This document shows, in pieces, positions 55,459 through 62,831 of a DNA stretch of 64,000 nt. The DNA comes from Planctomycetota bacterium (GTDB lineage Bacteria; Planctomycetota; Phycisphaerae; Phycisphaerales; SM1A02): assembly GCA_027622195.1 (NCBI GenBank), contig JAQBZO010000006.1:1-64000 (forward strand), written 5' to 3'. Position numbers and translations under genes: made by a program. Numbering within the stretch: position 1 is the stretch's first letter; each line of letters begins with the position of its first letter. The notes under the pieces are model-generated. The model made no database searches, was not told the DNA's origin, and was given only the letters and a program-made list of their open reading frames with translations.

Positions 55459-55842
55459 TTATCCCCTCGACCACTCGTGCGGCACCGATCCGTGCGTCGC
55501 GATGATGCGCGATCGAAATCCGCCGCGACCTTTCCATTCGGTCACGATTTGTAACCAGCGAGGACTCATCGAACGAGCGAGGTCATCGCGGATGGCGTTG
55601 GTGACCGCTTCGTAGTAAATGCCTCTGTTCCTGAAGTCTTGAAAGTACATCTTCAGGCTCTTGAGTTCGACGCATACCGCTTCAGGCACATATCGCACCG
55701 TCACCGTTCCAAAATCAGGATGGCCAGTCTTCGGACACACACTCGTGAATTCATCGTGCACGTGCTCGATGACGAATGGAGCACTCGATGGCGAATCAAA
55801 GAACTCGAGCAGATCAGCGTTGGGGCGCGTGGTGGCGGTCAT
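55459..55842 (-). CDS. queF: NADPH-dependent 7-cyano-7-deazaguanine reductase (preQ0 reductase)
   Basis: A 127-aa type I QueF, which reduces preQ0 to preQ1 in queuosine synthesis. The catalytic cysteine and following aspartate are in FTSVCPKTGHPDFGT, and ELKSLKMYFQDFRNRGIYYEAVTN carries the family's substrate and NADPH-binding region. Length is normal for the short bacterial type. Its ATG overlaps the stop of the Nfo-TPR gene by 4 nt, making it the last gene of the secretin operon. No other queuosine gene is nearby. Confidence 0.96.
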   Translation of the reverse strand: MTATTRPNADLLEFFDSPSSAPFVIEHVHDEFTSVCPKTGHPDFGTVTVRYVPEAVCVELKSLKMYFQDFRNRGIYYEAVTNAIRDDLARSMSPRWLQIVTEWKGRGGFRSRIIATHGSVPHEWSRG

Positions 55843-57788
55843 AGGTCGTATTGTCCCATCAACCGCATGATGCGCCGTTGGTCAGGATTGATTTCAAGGC
55901 TATGTTGGATTGCGTTCCGCGCTCGTGTGGCGGCATCAGCGTCACCCTTCTTGCTGCGAATCCACTCATTGATCGCGTTGATCGCGATGCCATTCCAACA
56001 AGGGTAATAGCGGGAGTCGAGGACGGTCCCTTCTCGGTACGCCGCTTCGGATGCGTCCCAATCGCCAGCCTTGAAGCGCACCCAGCCGAGTCGTTCCCAA
56101 CTCTCTGCGCGAGGAGAGATGCGGACGAGTTCTTCGGCAGTCAACACCGCCTCGCTCGTTCGATTGTCCGCCGTCAGGGCGTTGATGAGATTGATGAGGA
56201 GTCGAGAAGAAGGTTCCGCCAATTCGAGAGCAGCGTTGTACTGCGCAACCGCTTCACTAGGACGCTGACAACGCTCGTAGGCGACTCCGAGATTTGTGCG
56301 CGCACTCGCCGACTTTGGATCAATGCGAACGGCTCTCTCTCCATACGCCACAGCCGCGCGTGGCTCGCCCATATTGAGGTACACAATCGTCATGCTGATG
56401 TTTGCATTCACATCGTTGGGACGAAGGCTGATCGCGCGGTGATATGCGCGCACGGCATCGACATACTGACCAAGCATGTGGAGCGACATGCCGTATCCGT
56501 AAAATGCATCGTAATTGTTCACATCCAACTTTGTCGCCCGTTGGTACGCAGGAGCGGACTCTTTCCACTGCTGCTGCGCAACATGCACATCGCCTACGCC
56601 AATCCACGCCGTGGGCAGGAGCGGATTCTCTCGGAGCACTTCTCGAAACTGCGCCAACGCGCGCGCATAGTCGCCGCCTGCCAAGTCTTTCGATGCGTCC
56701 TCCAACTTGATGTGCTGCGATGGGGTGGGCTGTGCCACTTCGCCTGGAGCAAGATCAGATCGATTGACCTGCATCGACTGCCCCTTTTGTTTCCACGTTC
56801 TTCTGCAGCCAGAACTCGCCGATACACCGGCGAGGAGGGCGCACACGATGACGGCGCGCACCAATCGCTGTGCCCGACTCGCGTACGAACGAAGTTGAGC
56901 TGCGTTGATCTCATCCATCGGGCGACCATCGGTAGACATCGTCTTTGGAGTTTCGAGGATCACCGGTGCGTTGACCGCTGCTGCGGCACGAACCATCACG
57001 CGGAAGCAATGTTCTCCGCACGCTCCATCGCCGATGTGCTCATGGCGATCCTTGCGGCTTCCGCGCTCGCCCACAGAATCATTCGCGTGAAGAACACGCA
57101 GCGCAGTGTCTCCACACGCCAATTGAAATGCATCGAGCACACCCTTGGCGCGCGGCGCGGTCGAAAAGTCGTATCCCGCGGCGACCATGTGACAGGTATC
57201 GAGGCACACTCCCACTCGTTCTGGATTCTTGACTGAATCCAACACAATGGCAAGATGCGCGAAGTCGTATCCAAGATTTGTTCCGCCCCCCGCCGTGGAT
57301 TCAAGGCAAGTCACCACCGATGCACCCGCCGTCCTTCGATGTGTGGCATCGAGAGATTTGACAATGCGTCGCAATCCAATGAGTTCGTCCTTCGTCGGTG
57401 GTGTGCCGAGCACCTTGTCGCGCGGAGCGGCCTCGCCCAGATGAGCGCCGGGATGCATGACGCAGTAACCGATTCCCAGAGATTCGCAGCGGTCTGTTTC
57501 GTCGCATTGCCTCTCGATGCTGCGTTGTCGCGATGCCTCGTCAGGAGATGCGAAATTGACGAGGTAACTGTTGTGGCTGACGAGGCGCGATGCACTGTCC
57601 TTCCAACCAGTGCGACCGAGCGCGACCTTCCACGCATCGATCGCCTCACTCGTGAGAGGTGGCGCAGTCCATTGCCGTTGGTTCCGCGTGAACACTTGCA
57701 ATGCGTCGAATCCAAGGGTGATTGCCTCGTCCACAGCATTGAACATCCCACCTGCGACCGAAAGATGTGACCCGATGCGGAGTGTCAT
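55839..57788 (-). CDS. nfo: Endonuclease IV fused in frame to a TPR lipoprotein
   Basis: One 649-codon frame encodes two unlike proteins. Residues 1 to about 307 are a full endonuclease IV, a zinc AP endonuclease for base-excision repair: RIGSHLSVAGG, VSHNSYLVN, MHPGAHLG, CLESTAGGG, VCLDTCHMVAAGYD, HANDSVGERGSRKDRHEHIG, ILETPK. Then, without a stop, follow RLVRAVIVCALLAGVSASSGC, a lipoprotein signal with lipobox, and five or more TPRs (NYDAFYGYGMSLHMLGQYVDAVRAYHRAISLRP). An internal TTG (56864) or GTG (56861) would start the lipoprotein on its own, 341 or 340 aa. Nfo start 57788 or 57803. Confidence 0.85.
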   Translation of the reverse strand: MTLRIGSHLSVAGGMFNAVDEAITLGFDALQVFTRNQRQWTAPPLTSEAIDAWKVALGRTGWKDSASRLVSHNSYLVNFASPDEASRQRSIERQCDETDRCESLGIGYCVMHPGAHLGEAAPRDKVLGTPPTKDELIGLRRIVKSLDATHRRTAGASVVTCLESTAGGGTNLGYDFAHLAIVLDSVKNPERVGVCLDTCHMVAAGYDFSTAPRAKGVLDAFQLACGDTALRVLHANDSVGERGSRKDRHEHIGDGACGEHCFRVMVRAAAAVNAPVILETPKTMSTDGRPMDEINAAQLRSYASRAQRLVRAVIVCALLAGVSASSGCRRTWKQKGQSMQVNRSDLAPGEVAQPTPSQHIKLEDASKDLAGGDYARALAQFREVLRENPLLPTAWIGVGDVHVAQQQWKESAPAYQRATKLDVNNYDAFYGYGMSLHMLGQYVDAVRAYHRAISLRPNDVNANISMTIVYLNMGEPRAAVAYGERAVRIDPKSASARTNLGVAYERCQRPSEAVAQYNAALELAEPSSRLLINLINALTADNRTSEAVLTAEELVRISPRAESWERLGWVRFKAGDWDASEAAYREGTVLDSRYYPCWNGIAINAINEWIRSKKGDADAATRARNAIQHSLEINPDQRRIMRLMGQYDL

Positions 57789-57831
57789 GGCACCCCAGCG
57801 CATCGTTGGTGTTGTGCGAGACTCTGCATGG

Positions 57832-58863
57832 TTAGATTTTTCGCGCTCCGGCGGCGCGAGCAGCGGCCACAATGCGCTCGGCGGTTCGCACGCTTGCGAA
57901 ACCAGTTTCGGCATCGACCTCTGGAGCGCGACCCATTCGCACGGCGCTGAGGAAGTCTTCGAGTTGAAGTTTCAGAGGTTCTCCATCCTTGACATCAAGC
58001 GGTTCGACGGCCACGAGGGACATGTAGTCGACTCCTGACAGATCAGCACCACTCGCCAGTTGCGCTCTGACCTCATCGAGCTGGGCGCGGTTTGCGGTCT
58101 TGCGCACCACCGAACCGGAACGCGCCACGAAGTCGGCACTGATGTACCCATCTTCGCTAATGATGCGTAGTTTTCGCTCGGTCTTGAGCGCGAGACGGCT
58201 CGCGGTCACATTGGCGACGGGACGGATGCCGTCCGCAGCCGCAGGGAATATGAGTCGTGCGTTGCACACATCTTCCGCATCACCAAGAACGCAGACTGCG
58301 TTGGCATGGATCTCTTCCGGTTCGCTCCCCATCAACATCATGAGCAAGTCCAGATCGTGAATCATCATGTCAAGCACAACGCCAACATCGACACTGCGAA
58401 AAGTCATCGGCGAAATGCGGTCCATCTCGATAAAGCGCGGGCGCACCCCCTGCACGGCGCGAACGGCGCGCATGACAGGGTCGTATCGAACCACGTGTCC
58501 AACTTGGAGGACGCAGCCACTCTTCTTCGCCGCATCCGCGATGGCGCGCGCCTCAACAACATCCCCAGCGAGTGGCTTCTCGACAAGGCAGTGCACTCCA
58601 CGCGCGAGGGCGGGCTCGCAGATGGCGAGGTGCGTCACCGTTGGAGTGGCGACGGTGAGGCAGTCGATCCCTGCATCCAAGAGTGATTCGATCGTTGCGA
58701 ATGGTTTGCCACCCTGCTGTTCACATATGGACTGCGCGCGTGATGAATCGGGATCACACACGCCGACGAACTCGACTCCGTCTGACTGGGCGTAGAGGCG
58801 AGAGTGGTGCTTTCCCATTCGACCAGCTCCAGCGACGGCACATCGAAGCACACGATCAGTCAT
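57832..58863 (-). CDS. Gfo/Idh/MocA-family oxidoreductase
   Basis: A 343-aa NAD(P)-dependent dehydrogenase-like protein. The Rossmann motif CAVAGAGRMGKHHSRLY, the ATPTVTHLAICEPALARGVHCLVEKPL segment with the family lysine, and the C-terminal DVGVVLDMMIHDLDLLMMLMG motif are all present. Members oxidise sugars, inositols or amino-sugar nucleotides; in planctomycetes they are very numerous. Its start overlaps the RsbW-like gene stop by 4 nt and it is followed 43 bp later by nfo. Substrate unknown. Confidence 0.92.
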   Translation of the reverse strand: MTDRVLRCAVAGAGRMGKHHSRLYAQSDGVEFVGVCDPDSSRAQSICEQQGGKPFATIESLLDAGIDCLTVATPTVTHLAICEPALARGVHCLVEKPLAGDVVEARAIADAAKKSGCVLQVGHVVRYDPVMRAVRAVQGVRPRFIEMDRISPMTFRSVDVGVVLDMMIHDLDLLMMLMGSEPEEIHANAVCVLGDAEDVCNARLIFPAAADGIRPVANVTASRLALKTERKLRIISEDGYISADFVARSGSVVRKTANRAQLDEVRAQLASGADLSGVDYMSLVAVEPLDVKDGEPLKLQLEDFLSAVRMGRAPEVDAETGFASVRTAERIVAAARAAGARKI

Positions 58864-59300: not shown

Positions 59301-59666
59301 TCACTTCTTGAGCGCGTCGATCGCCTCAGCGATGGTCGCGTCCAGATGGAGGTGCTTGTCCAACTTGGTGATCTTGAACACCGTCATGATGGACTGGTTG
59401 ATGCAAGCGAGACGAATGGCACCGCCCTTCGCGCGAGCTGCGTTGTCAACCTTGATGAGCATTCCAAGAGCAGCGGAACTGAGGTGCGACACCGCGTCGA
59501 ATCCAATCACAAGCTTGGGGGATGCATTCCTCACGATCACCTGCTCGAGTTCTTGCCCGATCGCACGAATCTGAATCTCATCGATGAGATCCCGAACGCA
59601 GATCTCTGCTTTCACGATCCCGTCATGGGTCGATACAGAAAGATTCTTTTGCGGCTGTGCCATCAA
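59301..59666 (-). CDS. STAS-domain anti-sigma factor antagonist (RsbV-like)
   Basis: A 121-aa single STAS domain. The characteristic segment FDAVSHLSSAALGMLIKV contains the serine pair in which one residue is phosphorylated by the RsbW-like partner. It starts at ATG 59666 or 59663, overlapping the secretin stop (TGATG), and is followed after 9 bp by its presumed kinase. The close linkage to a secretin suggests that this switch may respond to, or control, secretion or envelope state. Confidence 0.9.
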   Translation of the reverse strand: MMAQPQKNLSVSTHDGIVKAEICVRDLIDEIQIRAIGQELEQVIVRNASPKLVIGFDAVSHLSSAALGMLIKVDNAARAKGGAIRLACINQSIMTVFKITKLDKHLHLDATIAEAIDALKK

Positions 59667-62600
59667 AATCCACCCAACGCTGCGCCCCCCACCGAATCAC
59701 CCAAGTTTGGGAAGAGGTCACGCTCTGCCTCTTGTTGGATGATGATCTCTGGGCGAATCAGCAACAGTCCATTCTTCTCTGCCTTCGAGGAGAGTCTGTT
59801 CGTGAAGAATCGATTGATGAATGGCAACTTGGACAGGACAGGCACTCCGATTTCGAGGTCAAACTCATTGACGCGACGCGTGCCTCCCAGAAGAATTGTG
59901 CCCTTGTCTGGAACTGAGACGCTGGTCCGAATCGCCACGCCCGCAATGACGGGGAGTGTGATGGTGCCTCCGAATTGTCCACCGCCACCTGGCCGACCGT
60001 CTCCACCAGCGCCACCCACAGCACCGGTGACAACCGCTTGGTTCGTCATGCTCACGATTTCATTTTGTCCGAAGACGACATTCATCGTGACATAGCGGCG
60101 ATCAGACGAAATAACTGCCTCGATATCGAGAACGAATCCTTCGTACACCATGCCAATCGTCGGCTGCATCGCTCCCGAACTATCGCCCGTCACCGGAGTC
60201 AGGTTCGAAATGTAAGTCTGACCTTCCGCCACACTGATCCACGACTGTTGTCCATTGAACAGAGTCAATCGTGGAGCCGTGAGCACCGATGTTCGCTGAT
60301 CTGCTTGGCTTGCCTGCACGAGAAGATCGACTTGAATGTCATCGAGGTAAGTGAATCCAGAGGTCATCACTGGGTTATTCACAAACGCCTGTCCAAAGTT
60401 TCCAACCGCGGCACCCGCGAGGGTGTTCATGAGTGGCAAACTATTGTTCGTGACGCCGACCGGAGACCATCCGTTGGAAATCTGCCCGTTGGAGTATGCG
60501 GTTCCGTTTGGTCGAACACCCACAGGGTTGTACACACCGAATGGCGTGTACGTGATGTCAGAACTTCCAGGAGTACCTGTTCCGAGTTGTGATCCAGTCG
60601 CAGTCGTATTGACCCCGTCGGTGGTCTGTCCAAATCCACCGAACACGATCGGATTCTGGAGCTGTCCCGATCCGCTCTGTGATCCTCCTGCGTTATAAGG
60701 TCGGAAAAACTGTGAGAGCGAGAAGTTTGGATCTTGCCCCACTGCATCAGCGTTCATGGCGCTGTTGGTGTTGAAGTACAAATCGAGATCAACGCCGATC
60801 TGCTCGAACCAATCGGTTTGAACGTTGATGAGTCTCGTCTCGATGTTGATCTGCAGCGACCTCACCTGTCGCAGTTGATCGAGGATGCCCACGATCTGCC
60901 GATGCGCAGCAGGTGTTTGTGTGATGATGAGGTTGCCGTTGAATTCAGAAATGCCGCTTCGTGCGCCGCTGTCTCCATCATCGCCCCAAGTACCTTCGGC
61001 TCCGTCCATTGAACCGTGATAGGTGTTCACATGGTCACGAATAATCCTGACGAGGTCGTCGATGATTTCCTGTCGATCGCGGCGTTCCACATCGCCGGTG
61101 GGATCACCGAAGATGCCGCCACCACCACCGCCGCCACCACCGCCGCCCATTCCGCCACCACCGCCACCGCCACCGCCGCCGAATCCGCCGCCACCGCCGC
61201 CACCACCCTGACCGCCGCCACCGCCACCTTGACCGCCGCCTTGTCCTTGCTGGATCGATTGATTCAGGTTGAAGTCTGGCGCATCAGTGAACATCGGGAT
61301 TTCAAAAATGAGATCGCGAATGTCGTAGACCTCGGTGGCAACCACTTGCTGCAATCCTTGACGACTCGAGACGCGAACGACTCCGTCAACGACTGAGAAT
61401 CGTGGAGACTCATCCCCTTCAACTTGCGAAAGCACTAGGTTCAGCGCCTTGTTCAGCGGCATATTGGCGAGGTCGATCTCGTCAGGCAACTCGGAATCCT
61501 TTTTAATCGAAAGGTCGGTCTGCAAGTGATTCCAGTCGATTGAGAATTGGACTGGAGCACCCGCGCCGCCGGCTACTCCGCGCAGAAATGTCACTGCGTC
61601 TTGCAGCGTTGTCTTTTCTGGAAGGACTGCATCGGCAGGCGTTCTCGTCGTGGTCAGCATGCTGAGAACGCGCATATTCTCTGGAGTTTCGGTGTATCCA
61701 TCCGCACCAATGCGTCGTGCTGCAATTTGATCAAAGTTTTCTGGATAGGTCACCAACGCGTTGTTCGATCGAGGACCTGGGCCAACCAGATTCACGCGTG
61801 GCACAAGGAAGGCTTGTTCTGCTTCGAGATCGAGCGTCTGAAAAGCGAACTGCCTCTGTCGCAGCGTGTCGGAGAATTGGCGAAGTTGCCAAGTCTGTTG
61901 GATCGCGTCTCTCAATGCGAGCGCAGTAATACTGTTCGGATCGAGCGCGAGTGTTTCGTCGAGCACCTGGAGCGCCTTGTCATACTCCTGCTGCGCTTGA
62001 AGTTCACGCACCTTGATGATGTTGTTCTCAATCATCTCGGTGCGCCGTGAATTTTCAGCGGTCATTTGCGCGCTTGCTGCAATCTTGGCTTCGGAGTTTG
62101 CACTTGCAGCGGCGGAGATTTCAGCCTGAACCCGCGCCGCATCAATGTTGGCGCGCAACTGCGAAAGAATGGTCTGCGTCGACTTGTATTCGGCAGAGGA
62201 GAGTGATCCCCTCGCACGATCGAGCTCGACCAGGGCGCGGCTCACTGATTGATCAGCCTTGGCGAAGTTGCCCGCCTTGAACTGAGTCTGAGCCCGAACT
62301 TGCAAATCAGCAATCCGAGCGGTTGCCTGAGAAGCCGCAAGGTTCGTTGTTGTGATGACTTCTTCGATGTTGCTGCCTTGGTTGAGTGCCTTGTTACAGA
62401 TGTCGCGCTGCTCGATCGCTTCGCGGTCGCCGGGCACATCGACGAGGATGGCGTTCCACTTCTCGATCGCCTTCTCCCACTGGCGCTGCGTCATCAAATT
62501 TCGAGCGTCGGATCGCAACTCGTCAATGATCATCGAACTGATTGGCTTCGAGCCACTCGCAGGAGCGACATCCGCCCCCTCAGGAGGCGCGTTCTGGGCC

Positions 62601-62689
62601 AAGACCGTGGGCGCGCCAAGCAGGAGGGAAGCCGCCGTCAAAGCGGGAATCATGAATGGCGACCGAACAAGGACTAAGAGATTCGACAT
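59663..62689 (-). CDS. Secretin (GspD/PilQ-like outer-membrane channel) with N-terminal helical repeat region
   Basis: A 1008-aa exported protein. ATG at 62689 follows CGGAG and opens a signal peptide (LVLVRSPFMIPALTAASLLLGAPTVLAQ). Residues about 50-300 are helical with TPR-like motifs (QWEKAIEKWNAILVDVPGD; EYDKALQVLDETLALDPNS). A secretin N-domain-like region follows, interrupted by an extreme glycine tract near residue 500. Then LIITQTPAAHRQIVGILDQLRQVRSLQINIETRLINV, and the secretin core VLTAPRLTLFNGQQSWISVAEGQTYI to VSVPDKGTILLGGTRR and VPVLSKLPFINRFFTNR. It would form an outer-membrane pore for type II-like or pilus secretion. Confidence 0.88.
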   Translation of the reverse strand: MSNLLVLVRSPFMIPALTAASLLLGAPTVLAQNAPPEGADVAPASGSKPISSMIIDELRSDARNLMTQRQWEKAIEKWNAILVDVPGDREAIEQRDICNKALNQGSNIEEVITTTNLAASQATARIADLQVRAQTQFKAGNFAKADQSVSRALVELDRARGSLSSAEYKSTQTILSQLRANIDAARVQAEISAAASANSEAKIAASAQMTAENSRRTEMIENNIIKVRELQAQQEYDKALQVLDETLALDPNSITALALRDAIQQTWQLRQFSDTLRQRQFAFQTLDLEAEQAFLVPRVNLVGPGPRSNNALVTYPENFDQIAARRIGADGYTETPENMRVLSMLTTTRTPADAVLPEKTTLQDAVTFLRGVAGGAGAPVQFSIDWNHLQTDLSIKKDSELPDEIDLANMPLNKALNLVLSQVEGDESPRFSVVDGVVRVSSRQGLQQVVATEVYDIRDLIFEIPMFTDAPDFNLNQSIQQGQGGGQGGGGGGQGGGGGGGGFGGGGGGGGGGMGGGGGGGGGGGIFGDPTGDVERRDRQEIIDDLVRIIRDHVNTYHGSMDGAEGTWGDDGDSGARSGISEFNGNLIITQTPAAHRQIVGILDQLRQVRSLQINIETRLINVQTDWFEQIGVDLDLYFNTNSAMNADAVGQDPNFSLSQFFRPYNAGGSQSGSGQLQNPIVFGGFGQTTDGVNTTATGSQLGTGTPGSSDITYTPFGVYNPVGVRPNGTAYSNGQISNGWSPVGVTNNSLPLMNTLAGAAVGNFGQAFVNNPVMTSGFTYLDDIQVDLLVQASQADQRTSVLTAPRLTLFNGQQSWISVAEGQTYISNLTPVTGDSSGAMQPTIGMVYEGFVLDIEAVISSDRRYVTMNVVFGQNEIVSMTNQAVVTGAVGGAGGDGRPGGGGQFGGTITLPVIAGVAIRTSVSVPDKGTILLGGTRRVNEFDLEIGVPVLSKLPFINRFFTNRLSSKAEKNGLLLIRPEIIIQQEAERDLFPNLGDSVGGAALGGF

Positions 62690-62831
62690 CTGGAACTCCG
62701 TGGGGGGGGTCTGACCGAACTGGTCGAGTTCTGCGGACTGGACAATTGGATGTGCAACCGTAGCAGGTCGAGACAGACTAGTCGGGCGAGAATCAATCCG
62801 CAACAAGAAGGGACTCGGCGCGAATTTGCGG

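Follow-up and report, generated by a model that had tools for sequence, protein, structure and literature searches.

Within the window (the whole stretch of 64,000 nucleotides of DNA that was analysed), nfo, the gene for endonuclease IV, and a gene for a TPR lipoprotein form a single frame on the minus strand. This frame occupies positions 55839–57788 and comprises 649 codons when counted from the ATG at 57788; the start codon of the fused gene is probably this ATG or the one at 57803, and no stop codon interrupts the frame anywhere between 55839 and 57914. The encoded protein of 649 residues is laid out as an Nfo domain, a basic linker, a hydrophobic stretch, a cysteine at position 328 and a TPR superhelix (Table 1). 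Downstream, the fused gene overlaps queF (55459–55842) by an ATGA, and on its other side lies a gene for a Gfo/Idh-type oxidoreductase (57832–58863); the three genes run in the same direction across 55459–58863. A scan of the region of the fused gene for promoters and terminators gave no more matches than did shuffled sequences. We note that a large ORF at 59663–62806 looks secretin-like, its predicted protein having long runs of glycine in the middle.

Table 1. Features of the fused nfo–TPR gene and its junctions, in order of translation (positions are those of the window)
Feature	Position	Strand	Basis
Endonuclease IV (Nfo) domain, residues 1–298 from ATG 57788 (ATG 57803 also possible)	56895..57788	-	TIGR00587, Foldseek, metal ligands
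Basic linker/signal n-region, residues 296–311 (AAQLRSYASRAQRLVR), continuous with the last Nfo helix	56856..56903	-	Junction listing, AF2
TTG and GTG codons, suggested earlier as an internal start; absent from both other members of the genus, and without a Shine–Dalgarno-like sequence	56859..56864	-	Junction listing, start-codon test
Hydrophobic h-region of the internal signal, residues 312–327 (AVIVCALLAGVSASSG)	56808..56855	-	Sequence, junction listing
Lipobox Cys328, where lipidation and cleavage by signal peptidase II are predicted	56805..56807	-	Invariant alignment column, 44/44
TPR superhelix, residues 356–646	55851..56723	-	PF07719 and other TPR models, AF2, Foldseek
queF overlap (ATGA: stop of the fused gene and start of queF)	55839..55842	-	ORF list, profile search

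In profile searches the window protein matched the nfo model TIGR00587 with 243.1 bits, above the cut-off of 129.65, and AP_endonuc_2 (PF01261) with 161.9 bits, while the NCBIfam equivalog NF002199, a narrower model than TIGR00587, was matched over nearly its full length with a score below its cut-off (239.7 versus 315 bits). Foldseek aligned the Nfo half with E. coli Nfo structures at 36% identity and with TM values of 0.92–0.94 of the target. The likeness to E. coli Nfo (TIGR00587; PDB 1QTW) extends to the TIM barrel and to all nine metal ligands (H72, H112, E163, D197, H200, H234, D247, H249 and E279 of the window protein), which were identified by alignment to the ligands of 1QTW and were invariant in 44 aligned fused proteins. 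The two proteins differ at the C-terminal helix, which ends in E. coli Nfo, whereas in the window protein it continues into a signal sequence and the TPR lipoprotein.

The C-terminal half was matched by many TPR models in the Pfam and NCBIfam search, including PF07719, and resembled consensus TPR superhelices in Foldseek; AF2 modelled most of this superhelix with a mean pLDDT of 92–98 per block of ten. PilW, Tgl and PrsT also combine a lipoprotein signal with TPRs, as the window protein does, and their models match it. However, the scores for PilW (TIGR02521, 62.8 of 154), Tgl (NF033762, 51.3 of 225) and PrsT (TIGR02917, 62.1 of 312.2) fall far under the curated cut-offs, and we therefore do not regard the TPR half as a member of any of these families.

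Relatives were sought in 61, 181 and 400 whole genomes, the genus and family designations used here being kinship codes of the genome search, and the junction was extracted only from loci with both halves. nfo and the TPR-lipoprotein gene are adjacent across much of the order. A stop-free junction in frame was found at 48 loci in 47 genomes, distributed over six genera of the window's family (three loci in g1, the genus of the window, 17 in g53, 12 in g61, one in g62, four in g16 and 11 in g25). No split gene pair at an intact junction occurred within these six genera; in three g61 genomes (G135, G137 and G144) neither half was found. All other genera examined, from the same and from other families, have a stop codon between the halves, often with a change of frame, and nearly always a start of the lipoprotein's own. 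Such split pairs encode the same two proteins in the same order as the fusion, but from two genes, the first closed by a stop and the second with its own start, some with an ATGA overlap, where the window has one frame. A scan of the genome contigs with the whole protein returned no relatives.

The preliminary description of this DNA had reported that endonuclease IV runs in frame and without a stop into a TPR lipoprotein, and this is confirmed by the frame itself and by the recurrence of the junction. It had also suggested that a lost nfo stop might have produced an awkward fusion, to be checked against related genomes. The fusion is real and conserved, whereas a lone lost stop is ruled out by the relatives, in which the check divided the order: the nfo stop is absent from the window's own genus and from the five other fused genera, and present in the other genera examined. 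That an error of assembly or sequencing deleted the stop codon might be entertained for a draft genome of 46 contigs, but the recurrence of the stop-free junction at 48 loci in 47 genomes, whose fused proteins are 40–63% identical to the window protein, makes the probability of such an error negligible.

No XthA scored over the cut-off in any of the three g1 genomes, nor in the remaining genomes of fused genera that were tested, and for this reason the fused Nfo probably serves as the chief class II AP endonuclease, needed in the cytoplasm. A second AP endonuclease that could relieve Nfo was considered and rejected for the window's genome, where the best match to the XthA model scored 20.9 bits against a cut-off of 99.05. 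XthA was present in genera g5 and g7, for which the searches listed only the TPR half; the genomes concerned (G006 and G008) have XthA and the TPR protein with no nfo match listed, which suggests that XthA replaces Nfo there.

The junction of the window protein carries a basic n-region, an h-region and a lipobox with its Cys, as expected of a lipoprotein, although these lie at residues 296–328 of the frame rather than at its beginning, and no internal start is shared consistently among the fused loci. The lipobox reads ASSGC, its Cys being preceded by AVIVCALLAGVSASSG; the −3 residue is Ser and not the usual Leu, and a broad PROSITE-type pattern fits. As coded here, this broad pattern fitted 29 of the 48 fused loci and 27 of 39 split relatives, so that the relaxed lipobox is a trait of the family and not of the fusion. 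The Cys328 column was invariant in all 44 aligned fused proteins, and every one of the 48 fused loci has a Cys that closes a hydrophobic stretch and follows Gly, Ala, Ser or Asn, the identity of the preceding residue being partly by construction as the junction listing sought a Cys after one of these four. Residue 329 of the window protein (56804–56802), just after this Cys, corresponds to a position that holds Arg or Lys in most of the fused loci, as it does in some of the split sisters. In the AF2 model of the window protein the last Nfo helix is unbroken from residue 291 to 325, up to the signal (Cys328), and in that of a g25 protein (L081) it passes from residue 281 to 303 straight into the signal (Cys308); confidence is low near the Cys and just past it. 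Both Lgt and LspA are encoded in the window's genome.

One explanation for a lipoprotein signal in this position is a second ribosome start in the linker, from which a separate lipoprotein would be made beside Nfo or the fusion. The TTG (56864–56862) and GTG (56861–56859) put forward earlier for this role do exist in the window, and sister genera begin the lipoprotein separately at an ATGA. Use of this TTG or GTG as a start is nevertheless disfavoured: both codons are absent from the two other g1 members (L007 and L008), no Shine–Dalgarno-like sequence accompanies them, and a start there would leave an n-region of 2–3 residues. When ATG, GTG and TTG were counted as candidate starts, the stretch from the Nfo motif to the h-region contained none in 21 of the 48 fused loci, including all 11 of g25 as well as L007 and L008, and the three codons were no commoner in fused loci than expected (31/48 versus 62% by chance). 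An ATG 16–30 codons before the Cys was found in 17 of 48 fused loci (about 23% being expected by chance from codon use) compared with 30 of 38 split loci, for which the Fisher P value of 7e-5 is too small because related loci were treated as independent; the absence of start codons in g25 and in L007 and L008 of g1 stands apart from this value. Nearly all split relatives have an ATG 14–36 codons before the Cys.

The linker itself also bears on this explanation. Measured between the conserved DxxN motif near the end of Nfo and the Cys, its length is 23–70 codons among the fused loci, always differing by whole codons, and the lengths within genera require at least about 20 changes, all in phase, a constraint to which a separate start would not be subject. 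The distance from the Nfo motif to the Cys is only 23 residues in g25, and synonymous and nonsynonymous changes in this short linker were few. A linker ATG is found in four of four g16 members and makes a separate start possible in that genus. From the in-phase linker, the start-codon counts and the spacing and AF2 helix of g25 we favour a translated fusion over two translation units, and regard an internal start as unlikely.

Several features can be read directly from the sequence: one conserved frame, a Cys that does not vary, an Nfo whose active site is intact, internal starts that are not consistent, and genes for Lgt and LspA. From these we propose that the gene would yield a single polypeptide with Nfo inside and the TPR part outside, to be separated by signal peptidase II at Cys328. 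Nfo would fold in the cytoplasm, and its last helix would continue into a lipoprotein-type signal that inserts into the inner membrane with its N-terminus inside and its C-terminus outside, so that the TPR part is exported. Lgt would then lipidate Cys328 and LspA would cut before it, so that a lipidated TPR protein would end up outside, and Nfo would presumably be left inside with a short hydrophobic tail. The in-phase linker, the continuous AF2 helices, the longer and more hydrophobic h-region of fused loci (see below) and the probable need for Nfo in the cytoplasm also speak for this model, which we consider reasonably probable. The earlier objection, that such a fusion could hardly be cytoplasmic and lipidated at once, carries little weight, because an internal signal in this orientation, cut at Cys328, would permit both. 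Export of a domain from behind a folded N-terminal domain of 300 residues is unusual, and this counts against the single-polypeptide reading, as do the fit of the broad lipobox pattern to only 29 of the 48 fused signals and the linker ATG of g16.

Another possibility is that the fusion is made but not cut, in which case the whole protein would tether Nfo to the membrane on its inner face and expose the TPR domain outside. The retention of a single frame also fits this, and the h-region of fused loci resembles a signal anchor in being longer than that of split loci (median 17 versus 14, P = 3e-6) and more hydrophobic (mean 2.69 versus 2.21, P = 0.003), comparisons in which related loci were counted as independent and in which the automatic choice of Cys was wrong in four g17 loci, slightly affecting the split set. 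However, a plain anchor has no need of the invariant Cys, the h-region, at about 17 residues, would make a short membrane span, and LspA is present; we think an uncut fusion unlikely. Still less can be said for the TPR half as a cytoplasmic add-on of Nfo that has lost export: the single frame is the one point in its favour, and no fused locus has lost the basic stretch, the hydrophobic stretch or the Cys while the surrounding linker varied, which makes it very improbable indeed.

If the single polypeptide is cut as proposed, the locus would encode a chromosomal polyprotein from which signal peptidase II parts a cytoplasmic DNA-repair enzyme and an exported lipoprotein, and the main AP endonuclease would be membrane-tailed and fixed in amount at 1:1 with an envelope lipoprotein, an extension of the model on which we are evenly divided. 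The nearest known precedent is FbcH of Bradyrhizobium japonicum, a polyprotein of cytochrome b and cytochrome c1 that is cut by signal peptidase. There, too, one bacterial frame encodes an N-terminal part, an internal signal sequence and a C-terminal part that is exported, as is predicted for the fusion in the window, and in 48 loci of six genera two complete proteins are likewise joined in one frame by a conserved signal. The products of FbcH, however, belong to one respiratory membrane complex, whereas the partners here, a soluble DNA-repair enzyme and a putative lipoprotein bearing a site for signal peptidase II, have no obvious complex in common. A literature search gave no usable report of an nfo–TPR fusion or of bacterial polyproteins cut by signal peptidase.

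As a rule, the parts joined in a bacterial fusion work in one and the same compartment. The present one would pair a cytoplasmic enzyme with an exported lipoprotein, and six genera have retained it with a guarded frame and an intact predicted cut site. Were it cut, it would provide a natural case of a lipoprotein signal lying internally, after a large folded domain, and a means of asking at what distance from the N-terminus Sec, Lgt and LspA still act; were it not, it would provide a membrane-tethered AP endonuclease.

In the split sisters g2, g17 and g26 the TGA of nfo overlaps the ATG of the lipoprotein gene by four bases in another frame, and in g28 the nfo stop and lipoprotein ATG, again in different frames, overlap by four bases or nearly so; the loci concerned are L028, L105, L091, L092, L095, L096 and L032, the overlap being mostly of four (ATGA). 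Pairs of this kind are the likely precursor state, and the fusion would most likely have arisen through a small indel that brought the adjacent, translationally coupled genes into register. The locus also illustrates how two genes that overlap and are coupled can become one. On a tree of the two domains the fused state needs at least four changes, two of them forced by well-supported branches. A topology with all fused loci in one clade gave a borderline result in the AU test (P = 0.052), and without g16 it was not rejected (P = 0.575). There may have been one fusion event or a few, gains being indistinguishable from losses on this tree. One g25 genome, G026, has two fused copies on separate contigs, C4:59443-61338 (L013) and C11:2888-4813 (L085), which may reflect a duplication or a mixed bin.
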